From Gammaproteobacteria bacterium (GTDB taxonomy: Bacteria > Pseudomonadota > Gammaproteobacteria > Thiohalomonadales > Thiohalomonadaceae): DNA of 51,275 nucleotides. Both the position numbers and the translations under genes were made by a program. Location: positions 1 to 51,275 of the forward strand of contig JAPHTQ010000048.1 of NCBI GenBank assembly GCA_026196275.1, read 5' to 3'. The notes under the pieces were generated by a model, which saw nothing but the letters and a program-made list of their open reading frames with translations, made no database searches and was not told the origin of the DNA. Positions 7,286 through 48,666 of the stretch are shown here, in pieces. How positions within the stretch are numbered: the stretch's first letter is position 1; every line of letters starts with the position of its first letter.

Positions 7286-8466
7286 AAGGGGTTTGCGTTC
7301 TCGGTGCCACCGGCTCCATCGGCGTGAGTACGCTGGATGTGGTGGCGCGCCATCCCGAACGCTATCGGGTGGTTGCCCTGACGGCCAACCGTCAGGTCGA
7401 GCGGCTGCAACAGCAGTGCCTTGAACACAGTCCCCGTTTTGCGGTGATGGTGGATGAGAATGCCGCTGAGCAGTTGCGCCAGGGGCTGCAACAGCTTGGT
7501 TCAGCGACCGAAGTGTTGAGCGGTGGTGAGGGGCTGGAGTATGTCGCCTCGCTGGATGAGGTGGACACTGTGATGGCAGCGATTGTCGGTGCTGCCGGTC
7601 TGCCGCCGACACTCGCAGCGGCACGTCACGGCAAGCGGGTGCTGCTGGCCAACAAGGAGGCGCTGGTGATGTCCGGCCAGCTGTTCATGGATGAGGTTCA
7701 CCAACACGGGGCAAAGCTGTTACCGATCGACAGCGAGCATAATGCCATCTTCCAGTGCATGCCGGTTGATTTTGAACAGGGGCTGCCTCAGGTAGGGGTC
7801 CGCCGTATTCTGCTGACCGCATCAGGCGGCCCGTTTCGCAGTACACCGCTGGAGCAGCTGGCGGCGGTGACCCCGGAGCAGGCGGTGGCACATCCCAACT
7901 GGTCGATGGGCAGAAAGATCTCCGTTGATTCGGCCACCATGATGAACAAGGGGCTGGAGGTGATAGAGGCCTGCTGGTTGTTCAAGACCACGCCCGCCAA
8001 TATTCAGGTGGTACTGCACCCACAAAGTGTGATCCACTCTATGGTCGAGTATGCCGATGGTTCGGTGCTGGCCCAACTGGGTAATCCAGACATGCGTACA
8101 CCGATCGCCCATGCCCTGGCGTGGCCGGAGCGGATTGACTCCGGCGTACCCAGCCTGGATATGTTCAGTGTCGCCAGGCTCGACTTTGAGGAGCCCGATC
8201 TACAGCGGTTCCCCTGCCTGCGCCTGTCAATGGAGGCGATGGAGAGGGGCGGCACGGCACCGACCATCCTTAATGCCGCCAATGAGATCGCGGTAGAGGC
8301 GTTTCTGGACCAGCGCATCGGCTTCACCGCTATTCCGGAGATCATTGAGACTACCCTGACACGCCTGCCGGCTAACCCGGCGGACTCTCTGGCGAGGATC
8401 TTCGACGATGATGCCGCAGCCCGAGCGGTGGCGGGCGAAGTGGTTGCCGGAGTTCGCAAACCATGA
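7270..8466 (+). CDS. dxr: 1-deoxy-D-xylulose 5-phosphate reductoisomerase
   Basis: Second enzyme of the MEP isoprenoid pathway, making 2-C-methyl-D-erythritol 4-phosphate with NADPH. It is 398 residues. It shows the nucleotide-binding loop [27 protein letters not shown], and the metal/substrate segment [35 protein letters not shown] includes the flexible-loop Trp. It supplies precursors for uppS, its upstream neighbour, and overlaps both cdsA and rseP. Confidence 0.98.
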
Positions 8467-37713: not shown

Positions 37714-37745
37714 ACGGCGTTCCCGTGCGGGAACGCCGTTTTTTT
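37714..37745 (+). terminator. Rho-independent terminator of dnaQ
   Basis: ACGGCGTTCCCG (37714-37725) pairs with CGGGAACGCCGT (37728-37739), followed by seven T's. The stop codon of convergent nhaD lies in the T tract, so the element serves the plus strand only. A second small hairpin, TGTGTAT/ATACACA, precedes it at 37689-37708. Confidence 0.9.
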
Positions 37746-39195
37746 AGCCAGCGCTTGCCGGTGAGTTGAGCAGCAGATGTACCCAGATGCTGGCGGCGTA
37801 GCCCAGCGCGACGGCCCAGCTCCACTTGAGGTGGTAGAAGAAGGTGTAGATACCGCGTGCCTGCCCCATCAGCGCCACCCCGGCAGCCGAGCCGATGGAG
37901 AGCAGCGAGCCGCCGACACCGGCGGTGAGGGTCACCAGCAGCCACTGATCCAGGCCCATCTGCGGCTGCATGGTGAGCACGGCGAACATCACCGGAATGT
38001 TATCGACGATAGCAGAGAGGAGCCCCACCAGGATATTGGCCCAGGTGGCGCCAAGGCCGTCGTACATAATCTCGGAGACCACCGCCAGGTAGCCCAGGGT
38101 CCCCAGACCACCGACACACAACACCACGCCGTAGAAGAACATCAGGGTATCCCACTCCGCGCGCTTCATGCTGATAAAGATATCAAAGGGTTTGTACCGC
38201 GGTTTGACCATGTGGGCGATCTCATCCATCTCGAACGATTCGGGACCGCTGATGTTGTAGTCCAGCTCCTTCTTTTCGCACATACGCAGGTAGTAGCCGT
38301 AGAACTTCAACAGGCCCATACCGGTCATCATCCCCAGTACCGGCGGCAGGTGCAGCAGGCTGTGACCCAGCACCGCCAGGGTGATGGTGAAGATGAACAG
38401 ACCGATGATGACCAGCCCGCCTTTTTTGATCTCAACCACCTCGTCAGCCGCCTCCGGTGAGCCTTTGGGTACTACCAGCGATAATATCGCTGCCGGTACC
38501 AGCCAGTTGACCAGGGAGGGGAGGAACAGCGAGAAAAACTCCTGGAACTGTACGATGCCTTTCTGCCATACCATCAGTGTGGTGATGTCGCCGAAGGGGG
38601 AGAAGGCACCACCGGCGTTGGCGGCAACCACAATATTGAGACAGGCCAGGGCGATAAAATCGGGTTTACCCACACCCACGGCCATCACCACAGCTGCCAT
38701 CAGCAGCGCGGTGGTGAGGTTGTCCGCGACCGGGGAGATGAAAAAAGCGAGCAGGCCGGTAACCCAGAAGACGGTGCGCAGGGTAAAGCCGCGGTTAACC
38801 AGCCAGGCGCGCAGGGCGTTGAAGACCTGGCGCTCCTCCATGGTGTTGATAAAGGTCATTGCCGCCAGCAGGAACAGCAGCAGCTCGGCATACTCCATCA
38901 GATTGTGGCGGATGGCGTTGCCGGCGGTCTCGGTATCACCGTGTGAAACGTAGGCAATCCCCACCAGCATCCAGATGATACCGGCAGCCACGATAACCGG
39001 TTTGGACTTGCGCAGGTGCAGAAACTCCTCACCGACCACGATGGCGTAGGCCAGGACAAAGACGATGACTGCCGTGATCCCGTACCAGGTATGGGTCAGG
39101 TCAAGCTGGCCGTTCGCCGATGCGGCAAACGCGCTGACAGGCACTGCCAGCAGGGTAAGTAGCCCGAGAAGTAGTTGCAGGATTCGCCGGTTCAT
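37744..39195 (-). CDS. nhaD: NhaD-type sodium:proton antiporter
   Basis: It has 483 residues with a cleavable-looking N-terminal hydrophobic segment (VPVSAFAA) and about 12 further membrane helices. NhaD/ArsB-superfamily features are SPVADNLTTALLMAAVV and NIVVAANAGGAFSPFGDITTLMVWQ, plus the second half with VDNIPVMFAVLTMQP and SIGSAAGVALMGQ. NhaD proteins export Na+ (or Li+) in exchange for protons at alkaline pH and are frequent in marine and haloalkaliphilic bacteria. Confidence 0.93.
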   Translation of the reverse strand: MNRRILQLLLGLLTLLAVPVSAFAASANGQLDLTHTWYGITAVIVFVLAYAIVVGEEFLHLRKSKPVIVAAGIIWMLVGIAYVSHGDTETAGNAIRHNLMEYAELLLFLLAAMTFINTMEERQVFNALRAWLVNRGFTLRTVFWVTGLLAFFISPVADNLTTALLMAAVVMAVGVGKPDFIALACLNIVVAANAGGAFSPFGDITTLMVWQKGIVQFQEFFSLFLPSLVNWLVPAAILSLVVPKGSPEAADEVVEIKKGGLVIIGLFIFTITLAVLGHSLLHLPPVLGMMTGMGLLKFYGYYLRMCEKKELDYNISGPESFEMDEIAHMVKPRYKPFDIFISMKRAEWDTLMFFYGVVLCVGGLGTLGYLAVVSEIMYDGLGATWANILVGLLSAIVDNIPVMFAVLTMQPQMGLDQWLLVTLTAGVGGSLLSIGSAAGVALMGQARGIYTFFYHLKWSWAVALGYAASIWVHLLLNSPASAG

Positions 39196-39516: not shown

Positions 39517-42195
39517 CTACAGGTTGATGGTCGCGACCATGATGCCGGGATCCTCGTCGCTGGCCTGCAAGTGAAAACCGAGTGATTTGACCAGCTCCAG
39601 CATTTTCTTGTTGTCCCCCAGGATCTCCCCGTCCATGCTGTTGAAACCGCGCTCCTGCGCGGCATCCATCAGGTGGGTCATCAGCTGTGAGCCGATGCCT
39701 CGGTGTTGCCACTCATCGGCTACCACCAGAGCGAACTCGCAGCTTTTGCCGTCCGGGTTCATGACATATCGTGCGACCCCCAGTTCAATCTCATTGCCTC
39801 CCTTCTCCTGCACCGCGATCAACGCCAGTTCGCGGTTGTAGTCAAGCTGGGTGAAGCGTACCAGCATCTCCGGTGTCAACTCGTTGAGGGTCTGCATGAA
39901 GCGGAAATACTTTGCCTGGGGAGATAGCTTGCGCACAAAACTCTGTTCGATTTCGGCATCCTCAGGCCGGATCGGACGGACAGTGATGTTGGAGCCATCA
40001 GCCAGTTGCATCTGTTTGACAAGGTGGTGTGGGTAGGGATGGATGGCCATGTGGCTGTAGGGGTCCAGCGAAGGGGTGCGGTGCGTCACCACAATGCGAC
40101 AGTCCAGCGCCAGTACGCCCTGGTTGTCCGCCACCAGCGGATTGATGTCCATCTCCACGATTTGTGGCAACTCACAGACCATCTCCGAAACCCGGCACAG
40201 GGCCTGCACCAGCGCATCCAGGTTGGCCGGTTCGAGATCGCGATGTGCCTGCAGCAGCCTGGCTGTGCGGGTATGCTCAATCAGGGTGCTGGCAAGAAAG
40301 CGGTTCAGTGGTGGCAGGGCCACGGCGCGGTCACGCATGATCTCCACCGCGGTGCCGCCGGCACCGAAGGTAATAATGGGACCGAACACCGGATCCCGGG
40401 TGACGCCGACCAGCAGCTCCCGGGCATGGCGGGAGTGGTACATCGGTTCGATCAGCACACCGTCTATGCCGGCCTCCGGGGCCTTTTCCCGCACCTCCTC
40501 CACCAGTTCGTGGTAGGCGGTACGCACCGCTTGGGCGTTGTTGATATTAAGTCGTACTCCGCCGACATCGGTTTTGTGGGTCAGCTGTGGTGAATTGATC
40601 TTCATCACCACCGGAAAGCCGTGGTTTTCGGCGGCAACCAGTGCCTCATTGGCCGAGCGGCAGTTACTGCCGGCAGAGACCGGAATGGCAAAGGCGTGCA
40701 GCAGGGCCTTCGCCTCCAAGGGGGCGAGCTGGCTGCGCTGTTCGGCCAGGGCACTTTCGATGATCAGACGTGCCCCCTCGACGTCGGGTCTGCTCTGCTT
40801 GCCGAGTGAACCGGGTACCTGCACCAGCAACTGCTGGTTACGGTAGTAGTTGGCGAGAAAGGCGAAGGCCTCTACCGAGGATTCGGGATTGCTGAAAGCG
40901 GGAATGTGGTGCTTGGCGAACAGGGCGTTGGCGCTGCGAACATGGCCGTCTCCCATCCAGCAGGCGAGCACCAGTTTCTCCTTTTTCTCCCGCGCCTTGA
41001 TCACGGCGCGGGCACAGGCTTCCGCGTCGGTCATCGCCTGGGGGGTGAGCATCACCAACACGCCATCGATCTCCGGGTCCGAAAGGCAGGCCTCGGTGGC
41101 CATGGCATAACGCTCATCACTGGCATCACCGAGTAGGTCGATAGGATTGCCGTGGGACCAGTGTGGCGGAAGGTTTTGCTCCAGCGTCGCCAAAGTCGCT
41201 GCCGAAAGATCGGCCAGTTTTACGCCGAGGTCGGCGGCCCGATCAGTGGCCATCACCCCGGGACCACCGCCGTTGGTGATGATTGCCAGGCGATTACCGC
41301 TGACCCGATGTGAGGCCGAGAGCAGCTGTGCCGCAGCAAACAGTTGCGAGATACTGTCCGCACGCACCACACCGGCACGCTGCAGCGCAGCGTCGAACAC
41401 ATCATCATCACCAATGAGGGCACCGGTATGGGTCAGCGCCGCCCTGGAGCCGCTGCTGTGGCGTCCTGCCTTGATCACCACCACGGGTTTCATTCTTGCT
41501 GCCACTCGCAGGCCGCTCATGAAGCTGCGCGAGTTACGGATCCCCTCGATATAGAGCAGGATGCTCTTGGTCTCGTTGTCCTGGGCAAGGAAATCGAGGA
41601 GGTCACCGAAATCGACATCCGCGGCATCGCCCAGCGAGGCGATGGCCGAAAAGCCGACATCCCGGGTTTCGGCCCAGTCCAATATGGCGGTGCAGAGTGC
41701 CCCTGACTGCGACACCATCGCCATCTTGCCGGGCCGGGCGGCGTTTTTGCCGAAAGTGGCGTTCATCCCCACCCTGGGGCGGATAAGACCCAGACAGTTG
41801 GGGCCGAGAATGCGGATCTGGTACTGATGAGCCGCCTCCAGCATCTTGCGCTCCAGCACCGCTCCCTTGCCATCGCCCTCGCCAAAACCGGCAGAGAGGA
41901 CGATCGCCGCACGCACGCCGTGCTCGCCGCAGGCGTGGATGATCTCCGGTACGCTGGCAGCGGGGGTGGCGATCACCGCCAGGTCGATTGCCTGGGTGAT
42001 CGACTGGATGTCGGGATAACAGGGCTTGCCTTTGAGAGCCTTATGCTTGGGATTGATAGGGTAGAGTTCGCCATGAAATCCCGCATTCAGCAGGTTCTCG
42101 TAAACCAGCGTGCCGACTGAATTGGTACGGGTGCTGGCGCCAAACAGGGCTATCGACCGTGGAGAGAAGAGGCGATCGAGATAGTGCGGACCCAT
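39517..42195 (-). CDS. pat: Pat/PatZ-type protein lysine acetyltransferase (ADP-forming acyl-CoA synthetase-like domain plus GNAT)
   Basis: It has 892 residues. The CoA-binding and succinyl-CoA-ligase-like domains (about 1-460; GASTRTNSVGTLVYENL, MVSQSGALCTAILDWA) are followed by an ATP-grasp domain (~480-700) and a C-terminal GNAT domain (~725-892), with the acetyl-CoA loop in VVADEWQHRGIGSQLM. This order and length match E. coli PatZ/Salmonella Pat, which acetylate acetyl-CoA synthetase and other proteins. The nucleotide-binding half is usually catalytically inactive in Pat. The gene is divergent from a deacetylase. Confidence 0.9.
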   Translation of the reverse strand: MGPHYLDRLFSPRSIALFGASTRTNSVGTLVYENLLNAGFHGELYPINPKHKALKGKPCYPDIQSITQAIDLAVIATPAASVPEIIHACGEHGVRAAIVLSAGFGEGDGKGAVLERKMLEAAHQYQIRILGPNCLGLIRPRVGMNATFGKNAARPGKMAMVSQSGALCTAILDWAETRDVGFSAIASLGDAADVDFGDLLDFLAQDNETKSILLYIEGIRNSRSFMSGLRVAARMKPVVVIKAGRHSSGSRAALTHTGALIGDDDVFDAALQRAGVVRADSISQLFAAAQLLSASHRVSGNRLAIITNGGGPGVMATDRAADLGVKLADLSAATLATLEQNLPPHWSHGNPIDLLGDASDERYAMATEACLSDPEIDGVLVMLTPQAMTDAEACARAVIKAREKKEKLVLACWMGDGHVRSANALFAKHHIPAFSNPESSVEAFAFLANYYRNQQLLVQVPGSLGKQSRPDVEGARLIIESALAEQRSQLAPLEAKALLHAFAIPVSAGSNCRSANEALVAAENHGFPVVMKINSPQLTHKTDVGGVRLNINNAQAVRTAYHELVEEVREKAPEAGIDGVLIEPMYHSRHARELLVGVTRDPVFGPIITFGAGGTAVEIMRDRAVALPPLNRFLASTLIEHTRTARLLQAHRDLEPANLDALVQALCRVSEMVCELPQIVEMDINPLVADNQGVLALDCRIVVTHRTPSLDPYSHMAIHPYPHHLVKQMQLADGSNITVRPIRPEDAEIEQSFVRKLSPQAKYFRFMQTLNELTPEMLVRFTQLDYNRELALIAVQEKGGNEIELGVARYVMNPDGKSCEFALVVADEWQHRGIGSQLMTHLMDAAQERGFNSMDGEILGDNKKMLELVKSLGFHLQASDEDPGIMVATINL

Positions 42196-42313
42196 ATATG
42201 ACTCCCTTGCAAGCTGCTAGTATTGGACAAATCGCGTTGTAGCGCATGGTAACGTCGACAGCAAAAGCCATGCTCGCATAAACACAACTTTTCTGGCCCT
42301 CACAGGCACTCTG

Positions 42314-43234
42314 ATGACCATAGCATTTATTTCCCATCCTGATTGTGAAAAACATGACATGGGGCCAGCCCACCCTGAATCCCCGGCACGCCTGCGTGCC
42401 ATTCAGGACCACCTGATCGCCACCGGTCTGGATATGGCACTGCGCCACTACAGCGCCCCGTTGGCAACGCGCGAACAGCTTTGCCGGGTACATGACCGGG
42501 ACTATATCGAGAGTGTTTTCGAGCGTGCGCCGGCAGAGGGCGTCGTCTGGCTCGATCCGGATACCGGTATGATGCCCCATACCCTAACCGCCGCCTTGCG
42601 CGCTGCAGGGGCCGCGGTGCTCGCTTCCGAGCTGGTCATGGAGGGTAAGAGCAGTCAGGCCTTCTGCAGCGTGCGCCCGCCGGGACACCACGCCAAGCGC
42701 CATGGGGCCATGGGGTTCTGTCTGTTTAACAATCTTGCGGTGGGAGCGGCCCACGCAATGGAGAACTACGGTATCGAGCGCCTGGCGATTGTCGACTTCG
42801 ACGTGCACCACGGCAACGGCACCGAAGATATCTTTCGCGATGACGAGCGGGTGCTGCTCTGCTCCTCCTTCCGCCACCCCTTCTACCCCTTCAGCGGCGC
42901 CGAGACCGAGTCGGACCACATCATCAACGCACCCCTAAAAGGCGGCAGCGACGGCGCCGCCTTCGGCACCATGGTGGAGGAAAAGTGGCTGCCCGCACTG
43001 CACGCCTTCAAACCGCAACTGATGTTCATCTCCGCCGGCTTCGACGCCCACGCCGAAGACGAAATGGGCGGAATGCGCCTGCTGGAGGCTGACTACAAGT
43101 GGGTGACTGCCGAAATGAAAAAAGTGATGCTCGACTACGGCGAGGGCCGCATCGTCTCCATGCTGGAGGGCGGCTACGAACTCGGCCCGCTGGCACGCAG
43201 CGTAGCGGCGCATCTTAACGGTATGCTTGATTGA
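42314..43234 (+). CDS. Histone-deacetylase-family amidohydrolase
   Basis: Zinc-dependent deacetylase of 306 residues, class II HDAC/acetylpolyamine amidohydrolase-like. It has HPESPARLRAI, the active-site RPPGHHAKRHGAMGFCLFNN, the zinc site DFDVHHGNGTEDIF and SAGFDAHAEDEMGG, and the C-terminal MLEGGYEL with its transition-state region. The substrate could be acetyl-lysine on proteins, acetylpolyamines or small amides. Divergent placement from a Pat-type acetyltransferase, 118 bases away, favours protein deacetylation, as with B. subtilis AcuC/AcuA; this is inference. Confidence 0.93.
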   Translation: MTIAFISHPDCEKHDMGPAHPESPARLRAIQDHLIATGLDMALRHYSAPLATREQLCRVHDRDYIESVFERAPAEGVVWLDPDTGMMPHTLTAALRAAGAAVLASELVMEGKSSQAFCSVRPPGHHAKRHGAMGFCLFNNLAVGAAHAMENYGIERLAIVDFDVHHGNGTEDIFRDDERVLLCSSFRHPFYPFSGAETESDHIINAPLKGGSDGAAFGTMVEEKWLPALHAFKPQLMFISAGFDAHAEDEMGGMRLLEADYKWVTAEMKKVMLDYGEGRIVSMLEGGYELGPLARSVAAHLNGMLD

Positions 43235-43516: not shown

Positions 43517-44545
43517 ATGCGTTCAAGGAGACCACCAGAACACAGCAGTAACCCCATCAACACCGATCGGCTCGTCGGCAACTCGAAGCTGCTTGGCCAA
43601 CTGCGCGATGACATTCGCCGCAGGCACTACAGCATACGCACCGAACAGGCCTACATCGACTGGGCCAGGCGCTACATCCTCTTTCACGGCAAGCGCCACC
43701 CCAATGACATGGGCGAGGCCGAAATCACCACCTTCCTCAACCACCTGGCCGTAGAGCGCAATGTCGCCGCATCGACTCAGAATCAGGCACTCAACGCGTT
43801 GTTGTTTCTCTACAAGCAGACCCTTAACCGCGAAGAGCTACATCTCGACAACCTGACCCGCGCCAAGCGCCCTGAGCGCCTCCCCAGCGTGTTCGAGCGC
43901 GACGAGGTGGAACGCCTCATCGGGCAACTGGAAGGCACGCACAAACTGATCGCCGCCCTGCTCTACGGCGGTGGACTGCGACTGCTGGAATGCCTGCGCC
44001 TGCGTATTCAGGATATCGAATTCGGCCGCAACCAGATCATCGTATGTAGCGGCAAGGGCGCCAAGGACCGCGTAACCCTGCTGCCGCCGGCCCTGGTCGA
44101 GCCGATCCGCCAACAGATGGCCGTGGCGAAAGTGCTCCACGCCGAGGATCTCGCCGCAGGCTACGGCGAGGTCTACCTGCCCCATGCGCTGGAGAGAAAG
44201 TACCCGAATGCCGCCCGGCAATGGGGATGGCAATACCTCTTTCCGGCGCCGGACACCGCCATCGACCCACGTTCGGGAAAGAGAAGGCGCCATCATTTTG
44301 GCGAGTCATCGGTGCAACGTGCCGTCAAAAAGGCCATCAAGGCAGCCGGGATCTACAAACATGGCAGTTGCCACACCCTGCGACACAGTTTCGCCACTCA
44401 TCTGCTAGAAGATGGATACGACATTCGCACCGTGCAGGAGTTGCTGGGGCACAAGGATGTACGCACCACCATGATCTACACCCACGTAATGAACAAGGGG
44501 CCGCTGGGGGTGAAGAGTCCGTTGATAAATTTAAAAGGATTTTGA
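43517..44545 (+). CDS. intI: Integron integrase (IntI-type tyrosine recombinase)
   Basis: It has 342 residues. The N-terminal SAM-like domain reads [26 protein letters not shown]. Catalytic residues are Arg in [12 protein letters not shown], Lys in [23 protein letters not shown] (His-x-x-Arg), the His in [10 protein letters not shown] and the nucleophile Tyr in IYTHV. The insertion unique to IntI is present at about residues 215-265 ([19 protein letters not shown] and [11 protein letters not shown]), separating it from XerC/D. Usual integrons transcribe intI away from the array; here it reads towards it. It is four bases upstream of the next gene. Confidence 0.95.
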
Positions 44546-48597: not shown

Positions 48598-48666
48598 ACC
48601 TAACAAACGGCTGCTAGGGACTGCATTACGCTGCGCTCCATGCAGCCCCAGAGCCGGGCGTTATGC
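48598..48666 (+). other. attC site 3 (69 bp)
   Basis: R'' ACCTAAC (48598-48604) and R' GTTATGC (48660-48666) are present. Outer arms CGGCT/AGCCG and an inner CTGCAT/ATGCAG stem give a typical imperfect palindrome. It closes the two-gene Thoeris-like cassette. Confidence 0.88.

Follow-up and report, generated by a model that had tools for sequence, protein, structure and literature searches.

Work on the protein acetyltransferase Pat in the Gammaproteobacteria rests on the enteric pair of Pat and the sirtuin CobB, known from SePat of Salmonella and PatZ of E. coli. Zinc-dependent erasers have been described as well. Bacillus acuABC, as presented in one section of a review, links the GNAT writer AcuA with the zinc-dependent histone deacetylase (HDAC) AcuC, which act on AcsA (PMC8556138), and in Rhodopseudomonas palustris, according to part of a further article, the zinc-type deacetylase LdaA removes the acetyl groups that RpPat places on Acs and on further acyl-CoA synthetases (PMC6640162). 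Here we analysed a stretch of 51,275 nucleotides (contig JAPHTQ010000048.1, hereafter the window) from a gammaproteobacterium of the family Thiohalomonadaceae, in which a gene for a Pat-type acetyltransferase and a gene for a class II-type HDAC lie on opposite strands with their starts 118 bases apart. The initial annotation had described the two genes in these terms, and the open reading frame (ORF) coordinates and Pfam matches agree with it. Judging from genome context and conserved motifs, we consider it probable that the pair is a zinc-dependent counterpart of Pat/CobB, which would reversibly acetylate Acs-type enzymes.

The Pat-type protein carries CoA_binding_2, Succ_CoA_lig, Ligase_CoA_2, ATP-grasp_5 and GNAT in this order, the architecture of a type I Pat: a region resembling NDP-forming acyl-CoA synthetases, with ATP-grasp, spans residues ∼6–703, and the C-terminal GNAT domain spans ∼730–880. 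The top solved-structure matches, 9isq and 9it0 (each named "Protein acetyltransferase"), run end to end at E ∼1e-171, and we take both to be enteric Pat enzymes. Within the GNAT domain, the catalytic glutamate E820 aligns with its 9isq counterpart, and the acetyl-CoA binding P-loop QHRGIG is found at 830. These features point to a lysine acetyltransferase, with Acs as its predicted substrate.

The protein encoded next to it is a member of Hist_deacetyl (PF00850, E 8.2e-84). Its best solved-structure match was 5ji5 (E 3e-111, end to end), with HDAC6 next, so the label "class II HDAC-like" given by the initial annotation is right; we presume that 5ji5, construct BuphA.10154, comes from Burkholderia phymatum. 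Both class II-type motifs are present, namely RPP within RPPGHH (121–126) and EGGY with Y288, together with DFDVHH, which holds the zinc ligands D163 and H165, and D244. Each of the residues H125, H126, D163, H165, D244 and Y288 was invariant in all 106 relatives scanned (loci L003–L082, L084–L095 and L128–L141; 48 linked to Pat and 58 not linked). The AcuC (cluster 2c) motifs GGGLHH/GGGY were absent from the window HDAC, which has RPPGHH/EGGY in their place, and AcuC membership was rejected on this motif scan. In the relevant part of a study of bacterial HDACs, RPP and EGGY are associated with robust deacetylases, while GGGLHH/GGGY goes with AcuC and either PEG or PIS with enzymes acting on polyamines (PMC11532494). 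By its motifs, the window HDAC fits a class II-type lysine deacetylase and not AcuC.

The source genome (2.54 Mb, 88 contigs, 99.16% complete) was checked for cobB, as the initial annotation had suggested: no SIR2-family match was found with a search that detected SIR2 in 10 of 14 control genomes, AhCobQ-type deacetylases not having been searched for. The genome has a single Pat, the sole other match being a weak stretch at 27% identity. It also has one strong Acs match, on a contig other than that of the pair, and this Acs ends in PKTRSGKIMRR, which holds the acetylatable TRSGK lysine motif. The lysine in RSGKIMR of Bacillus subtilis AcsA is reported as acetylated in the part of the HDAC study concerned (PMC11532494).

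Conservation of the adjacency, a further check named by the initial annotation, was examined at several taxonomic depths. Among 20 genomes of the family, 13 contained a full-length Pat, and the same 13 contained an HDAC with no less than 52% identity to that of the window; in the seven without full-length Pat, HDAC matches were missing, weaker or partial (31–50% identity). The two genes adjoin divergently on one contig in 10 of the 13 genomes with both. In G019 the HDAC lies close to a contig start and Pat on a different contig, so that the two may or may not adjoin, and in G011 and G012 the genes are on separate contigs with no Pat inside the fetched HDAC flank. SIR2 was found in only one of the 20 genomes, G012, whose pair is unlinked.

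Beyond the family, 140 Gammaproteobacteria genomes were sampled evenly, nearly every one representing a family of its own, and the HDAC, Pat and SIR2 searches gave matches in 39, 42 and 25 of them. Thirty-five of the Pat genomes were kept, including G095 (truncated where its contig ends) and G063 (33% identical), and seven were dropped whose match did not cover the GNAT domain; 27 genomes reached the threshold for a window-like HDAC (at least 290 bits). Such an HDAC and Pat strongly co-occurred (both in 23 genomes, HDAC alone in 4, Pat alone in 12, neither in 101; odds ratio 48, p 7e-14), compared with an odds ratio of 4.6 (p 0.0015) for SIR2 and Pat, p-values that overstate independence because the sampled genomes are related. 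In this sample, a class II HDAC is a much stronger predictor of Pat than a sirtuin is, and it adjoins Pat in most genomes with both: the HDAC lay less than 1 kb from Pat in 16 of the 23, counting G139, where a stand-alone GNAT takes the place of Pat. Twelve of these pairs were divergent, three ran from Pat to HDAC and one was convergent. Chance adjacency was rejected on this count, for which a rough null, uncorrected for relatedness, is ∼1e-37.

We also inspected 80 HDAC relatives from named genomes, fixing the places of HDAC and Pat before other neighbours were assigned. Pat was the immediate neighbour in 20 of them: nine divergent loci (including Sedimenticola, Gallionella, Ectothiorhodospira, Thiodiazotropha, Thiobacillus and Granulosicoccus), two running from Pat to HDAC, and nine from HDAC to Pat (including Hydrogenophaga, Rhodoferax and Polaromonas). 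Two culturable species, Sedimenticola selenatireducens (L003) and Ectothiorhodospira shaposhnikovii (L019), are among those with the divergent order. An adjacency unique to this genome, which the initial annotation had named as speaking against its proposal, is rejected by the 10 of 13 family genomes and the 20 of 80 named loci, as the pairing recurs across family and class.

Acetyltransferases other than Pat were found beside the HDAC as well. Five Alteromonadales loci (L038, L041, L043, L056, and L057) carry an acetyl-CoA hydrolase/CoA-transferase with a C-terminal GNAT domain directly upstream of the HDAC, on the same strand, with a gap of at most 48 bp or an overlap; two of the five proteins were scanned. 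The class sample yielded no such gene either linked or fused, its six matches all stopping before GNAT, so the spread of the fusion is known from the five named loci only. At L137, a stand-alone GNAT 45% identical to that of the window is divergent from the HDAC. L013 has, at ∼7694–7876, a short stretch of 61 aa left over from a Pat-type GNAT (62% identity) and flanked by a MoxR-like gene and the HDAC, which looks like the decay of a former pair; with only this remnant beside the HDAC, the locus was not counted as linked.

In the mechanism that we propose, Pat would use acetyl-CoA to acetylate AMP-forming acyl-CoA synthetases, for example Acs of the same genome at the TRSGK lysine, and thereby switch them off, while the large N-terminal region of Pat may sense or handle acetyl-CoA. 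The HDAC would use a zinc-bound water to hydrolyse the acetyl-lysine, so that acetate is released and the synthetase becomes active again with no need for NAD+. The adjacency would presumably balance writer and eraser via a shared or neighbouring promoter; a scan of the 118-bp region between the start codons (42196–42313) for a sigma-70-type consensus found none.

Several observations weigh against this interpretation. First, neither Pat nor the CoA-transferase-GNAT fusion is the immediate neighbour in 55 of the 80 named HDAC loci; in many Betaproteobacteria loci the neighbours are other genes, the commonest of which, named by reading only, we take to be MoxR/DUF58/transglutaminase, MltB and CysM-like genes. 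Second, the class sample contains exceptions in both directions, Pat being missing in 4 of the 27 genomes with a strong HDAC, and 4 of the 35 Pat genomes lacking both HDAC and sirtuin. Third, SIR2 is not rarer where the pair is linked (5 of 16 linked vs. 8 of 19 other Pat genomes, p 0.73), by which the idea that the HDAC strictly replaces the sirtuin is rejected. Fourth, in a 299-genome search of the phylum, from which 58 Pat loci were taken among the matches listed at about one per genus, an HDAC lay within 2 kb of Pat in 7 of 33 fetched gammaproteobacterial loci vs. only 1 of 25 outside the class (L187), so the linkage is mainly gammaproteobacterial, betaproteobacterial orders included. Fifth, the source genome encodes two PF00850 proteins, the second being a class II-type HDAC on another contig (C7:364-1221, L001) that is 43% identical to that of the window and carries RPPGHH and EGGY too; the window HDAC need therefore not be the sole opposing enzyme. 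Lastly, bacterial class II deacetylases of cluster 1b failed on AcsA of B. subtilis, as stated in a portion of the HDAC study (PMC11532494), a warning softened in that the window HDAC is not shown to belong to this cluster. The reversible acetylation switch put forward in the initial annotation accordingly keeps the backing of genome context (linkage in several orientations, no sirtuin, the Acs motif) and is qualified by the second HDAC and by the sirtuins of the five linked genomes.

Among the alternatives, the HDAC might be an amidohydrolase of acetylpolyamines or other small molecules, adjacent to Pat through shared acetyl and acetate metabolism and not through opposition on proteins. Polyamine and small-molecule amidohydrolases occur among bacterial class II-type HDACs, and the polyamine enzymes likewise carry RPP and EGGY, in the sections of the study that deal with them (PMC11532494), so these two motifs alone do not exclude polyamine enzymes; the 55 loci with neither Pat nor the fusion as neighbour fit this alternative as well. 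The window HDAC, however, has E-M-G at residues 250–252, the gatekeeper position being set by alignment to HDAC6, and among the 106 relatives this position is Met in 74, Leu in 30 and Ile in 2, never the Glu of HDAC10. Neither polyamine gatekeeper motif, PIS of cluster 4 or PEG of HDAC10, was present in the window HDAC, which argues against an enzyme acting on acetylpolyamines only. Moreover, the linked partner always bears a GNAT domain, even where it is a stand-alone GNAT or a CoA-transferase fusion. We regard this alternative as unlikely.

It is very unlikely, in our estimate, that the Pat-type protein serves chiefly as an ADP-forming acyl-CoA synthetase that recycles the acetate released by the HDAC, with GNAT as an accessory. 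Both ligase histidines are present, H256 in an (S/T)HTG motif and H540 in an HK(S/T)D motif, both shared with the ADP-forming ligases 8wzu, 2csu and 9y43 (2csu covering only the first motif in the alignment), while the first motif is deleted in 9isq and 9it0; we assume that H256 and H540 correspond to the phosphorylated histidines of the ligases. In an alignment of 123 Pat proteins, the H256-type motif was present in 40 of the 48 linked sequences and in 59 of the 75 unlinked ones, by a generous criterion that counted L211, L215 and L216 despite a shortened motif. Yet the linkage outlasts the loss of this histidine in three distinct regions of the Pat tree (L136; L073 and L140; the group of L196, L209, L213, L220 and L222), which comprise the remaining 8 linked proteins, whereas all 48 linked proteins had Glu as the catalytic GNAT residue, as did 72 of the 75 unlinked ones, the other three having Asp. 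The linkage also survives the swap to GNAT alone (L137) or to the CoA-transferase-GNAT fusion, and the window Pat scores 526.1 bits on TIGR02717 (ADP-forming acetate--CoA ligase), below the NCBIfam cut-off of 567.15. Informative pairs for a sign test relating linkage to histidine loss were too few. On the counts of ligase histidine and GNAT glutamate, the ligase was rejected as the cause of the linkage; because the linkage outlives the ligase active site and persists with the CoA-transferase-GNAT fusion, HDAC linkage follows the acetyltransferase.

That the adjacency is an old neighbourhood inherited by descent and functionally meaningless is hardly credible: the divergent order is common to relatives and shared ancestry explains part of the co-occurrence, but at least 19 linked/unlinked changes on the Pat tree and at least 17 on the HDAC tree (both made by fast methods, with many weak deep branches, so that gain and loss are indistinguishable), four arrangements overall, independent linkages in a second Pat clade (L132, L206, L209/L222, and L196/L213/L220) and the rough adjacency null all argue against it.

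That the window Pat keeps these ligase histidines was unexpected. In a passage of the review, type I Pat ligase regions are described as without activity (PMC8556138). This description may not apply to Pats beyond the enteric-like branch, because most of those sampled keep the ligase histidine, and their inactivity is thereby called into question; the window Pat may, by its motifs, double as a working acetyl-CoA synthetase. A self-contained acetyl cycle is conceivable, if doubtful, in which an active Pat ligase would re-activate the acetate freed by the HDAC and feed the fused GNAT, with an independent version in the Alteromonadales. If this were true, the level of protein acetylation would depend on local acetate, CoA and ATP/ADP and would need no NAD+; the Alteromonadales would have fused GNAT to an unrelated acetate/acetyl-CoA enzyme beside the same kind of HDAC; and the derived exception would be the enteric Pat, whose ligase is dead and whose eraser is a sirtuin.

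Returning to the zinc-dependent counterpart of Pat/CobB, the co-occurrence and linkage suggest that zinc enzymes often perform the acetyl removal that textbooks assign to another enzyme class. An orphan group of bacterial HDACs gains a likely partner and substrate class, and an NAD+-independent erasure of acetyl-lysine is predicted, possibly sensitive to hydroxamate-type HDAC inhibitors. A weak literature search, confined to open-licence PMC articles, found no paper naming the Pat–HDAC linkage in its title or the start of its abstract.

The coordinates of the genes discussed are collected in Table 1. On the Pat side, the next gene in the window, on the same strand, encodes an NhaD-type Na+/H+ antiporter (37744–39195, minus; NF038006, 609 bits), which did not turn up close to the pair in fetched loci of relatives. 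On the other side, 282 bp downstream of the HDAC, lies an integron integrase gene (43517–44545, plus; TIGR02249, 462 bits vs. a cut-off of 265), with a series of small plus-strand ORFs behind it; repeats of the GGCGTTATG type at 48657 and 49365, immediately before ORFs, look attC-like.

Table 1. Coordinates of the Pat/HDAC pair and of the related fusion gene
Feature	Position	Strand	Details
Pat-type protein gene	39517..42195	minus	892 aa, ATG start, ORF and Pfam
Intergenic region between both start codons	42196..42313		118 bp, presumed divergent promoter region
Class II-type HDAC gene	42314..43234	plus	306 aa, ATG start, ORF and Pfam
Acetyl-CoA hydrolase/CoA-transferase-GNAT fusion gene	L038:6156-8000		directly upstream of HDAC, same strand

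Compared with Pat/CobB, the window Pat shares the domain order of SePat and PatZ, a ligase-like region with a C-terminal GNAT, is similar to 9isq and 9it0 over its whole length and keeps the GNAT glutamate. It differs in having the ligase histidine motif that 9isq and 9it0 lack, and the eraser differs in being a zinc-type HDAC next door, with no SIR2 gene found in the genome. The HDAC itself resembles the HDAC-family protein 5ji5 from end to end. Bacillus acuABC is alike in its genome-linked GNAT writer and zinc-dependent eraser; however, AcuC carries the cluster 2 motifs GGGLHH/GGGY in contrast to RPPGHH/EGGY here, AcuA is without the ligase domain that the window Pat has, and the window locus has no AcuB, its own Acs being unlinked on another contig. 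The comparison with AcuA/AcuC made in the initial annotation therefore holds by function only, since the window HDAC is without the AcuC motif. The RpPat/LdaA pair of R. palustris, as far as the cited sections go, resembles the proposed one in that a zinc-type deacetylase undoes the acetylation by a Pat, but R. palustris has the sirtuin SrtN besides, unlike the window genome, and RpPat is listed in the review as a small type IV GNAT, unlike the type I Pat of the window (PMC8556138). Reversible acetylation of this kind is already known; what is new is the proposed matching of a type I Pat with a class II HDAC for it.

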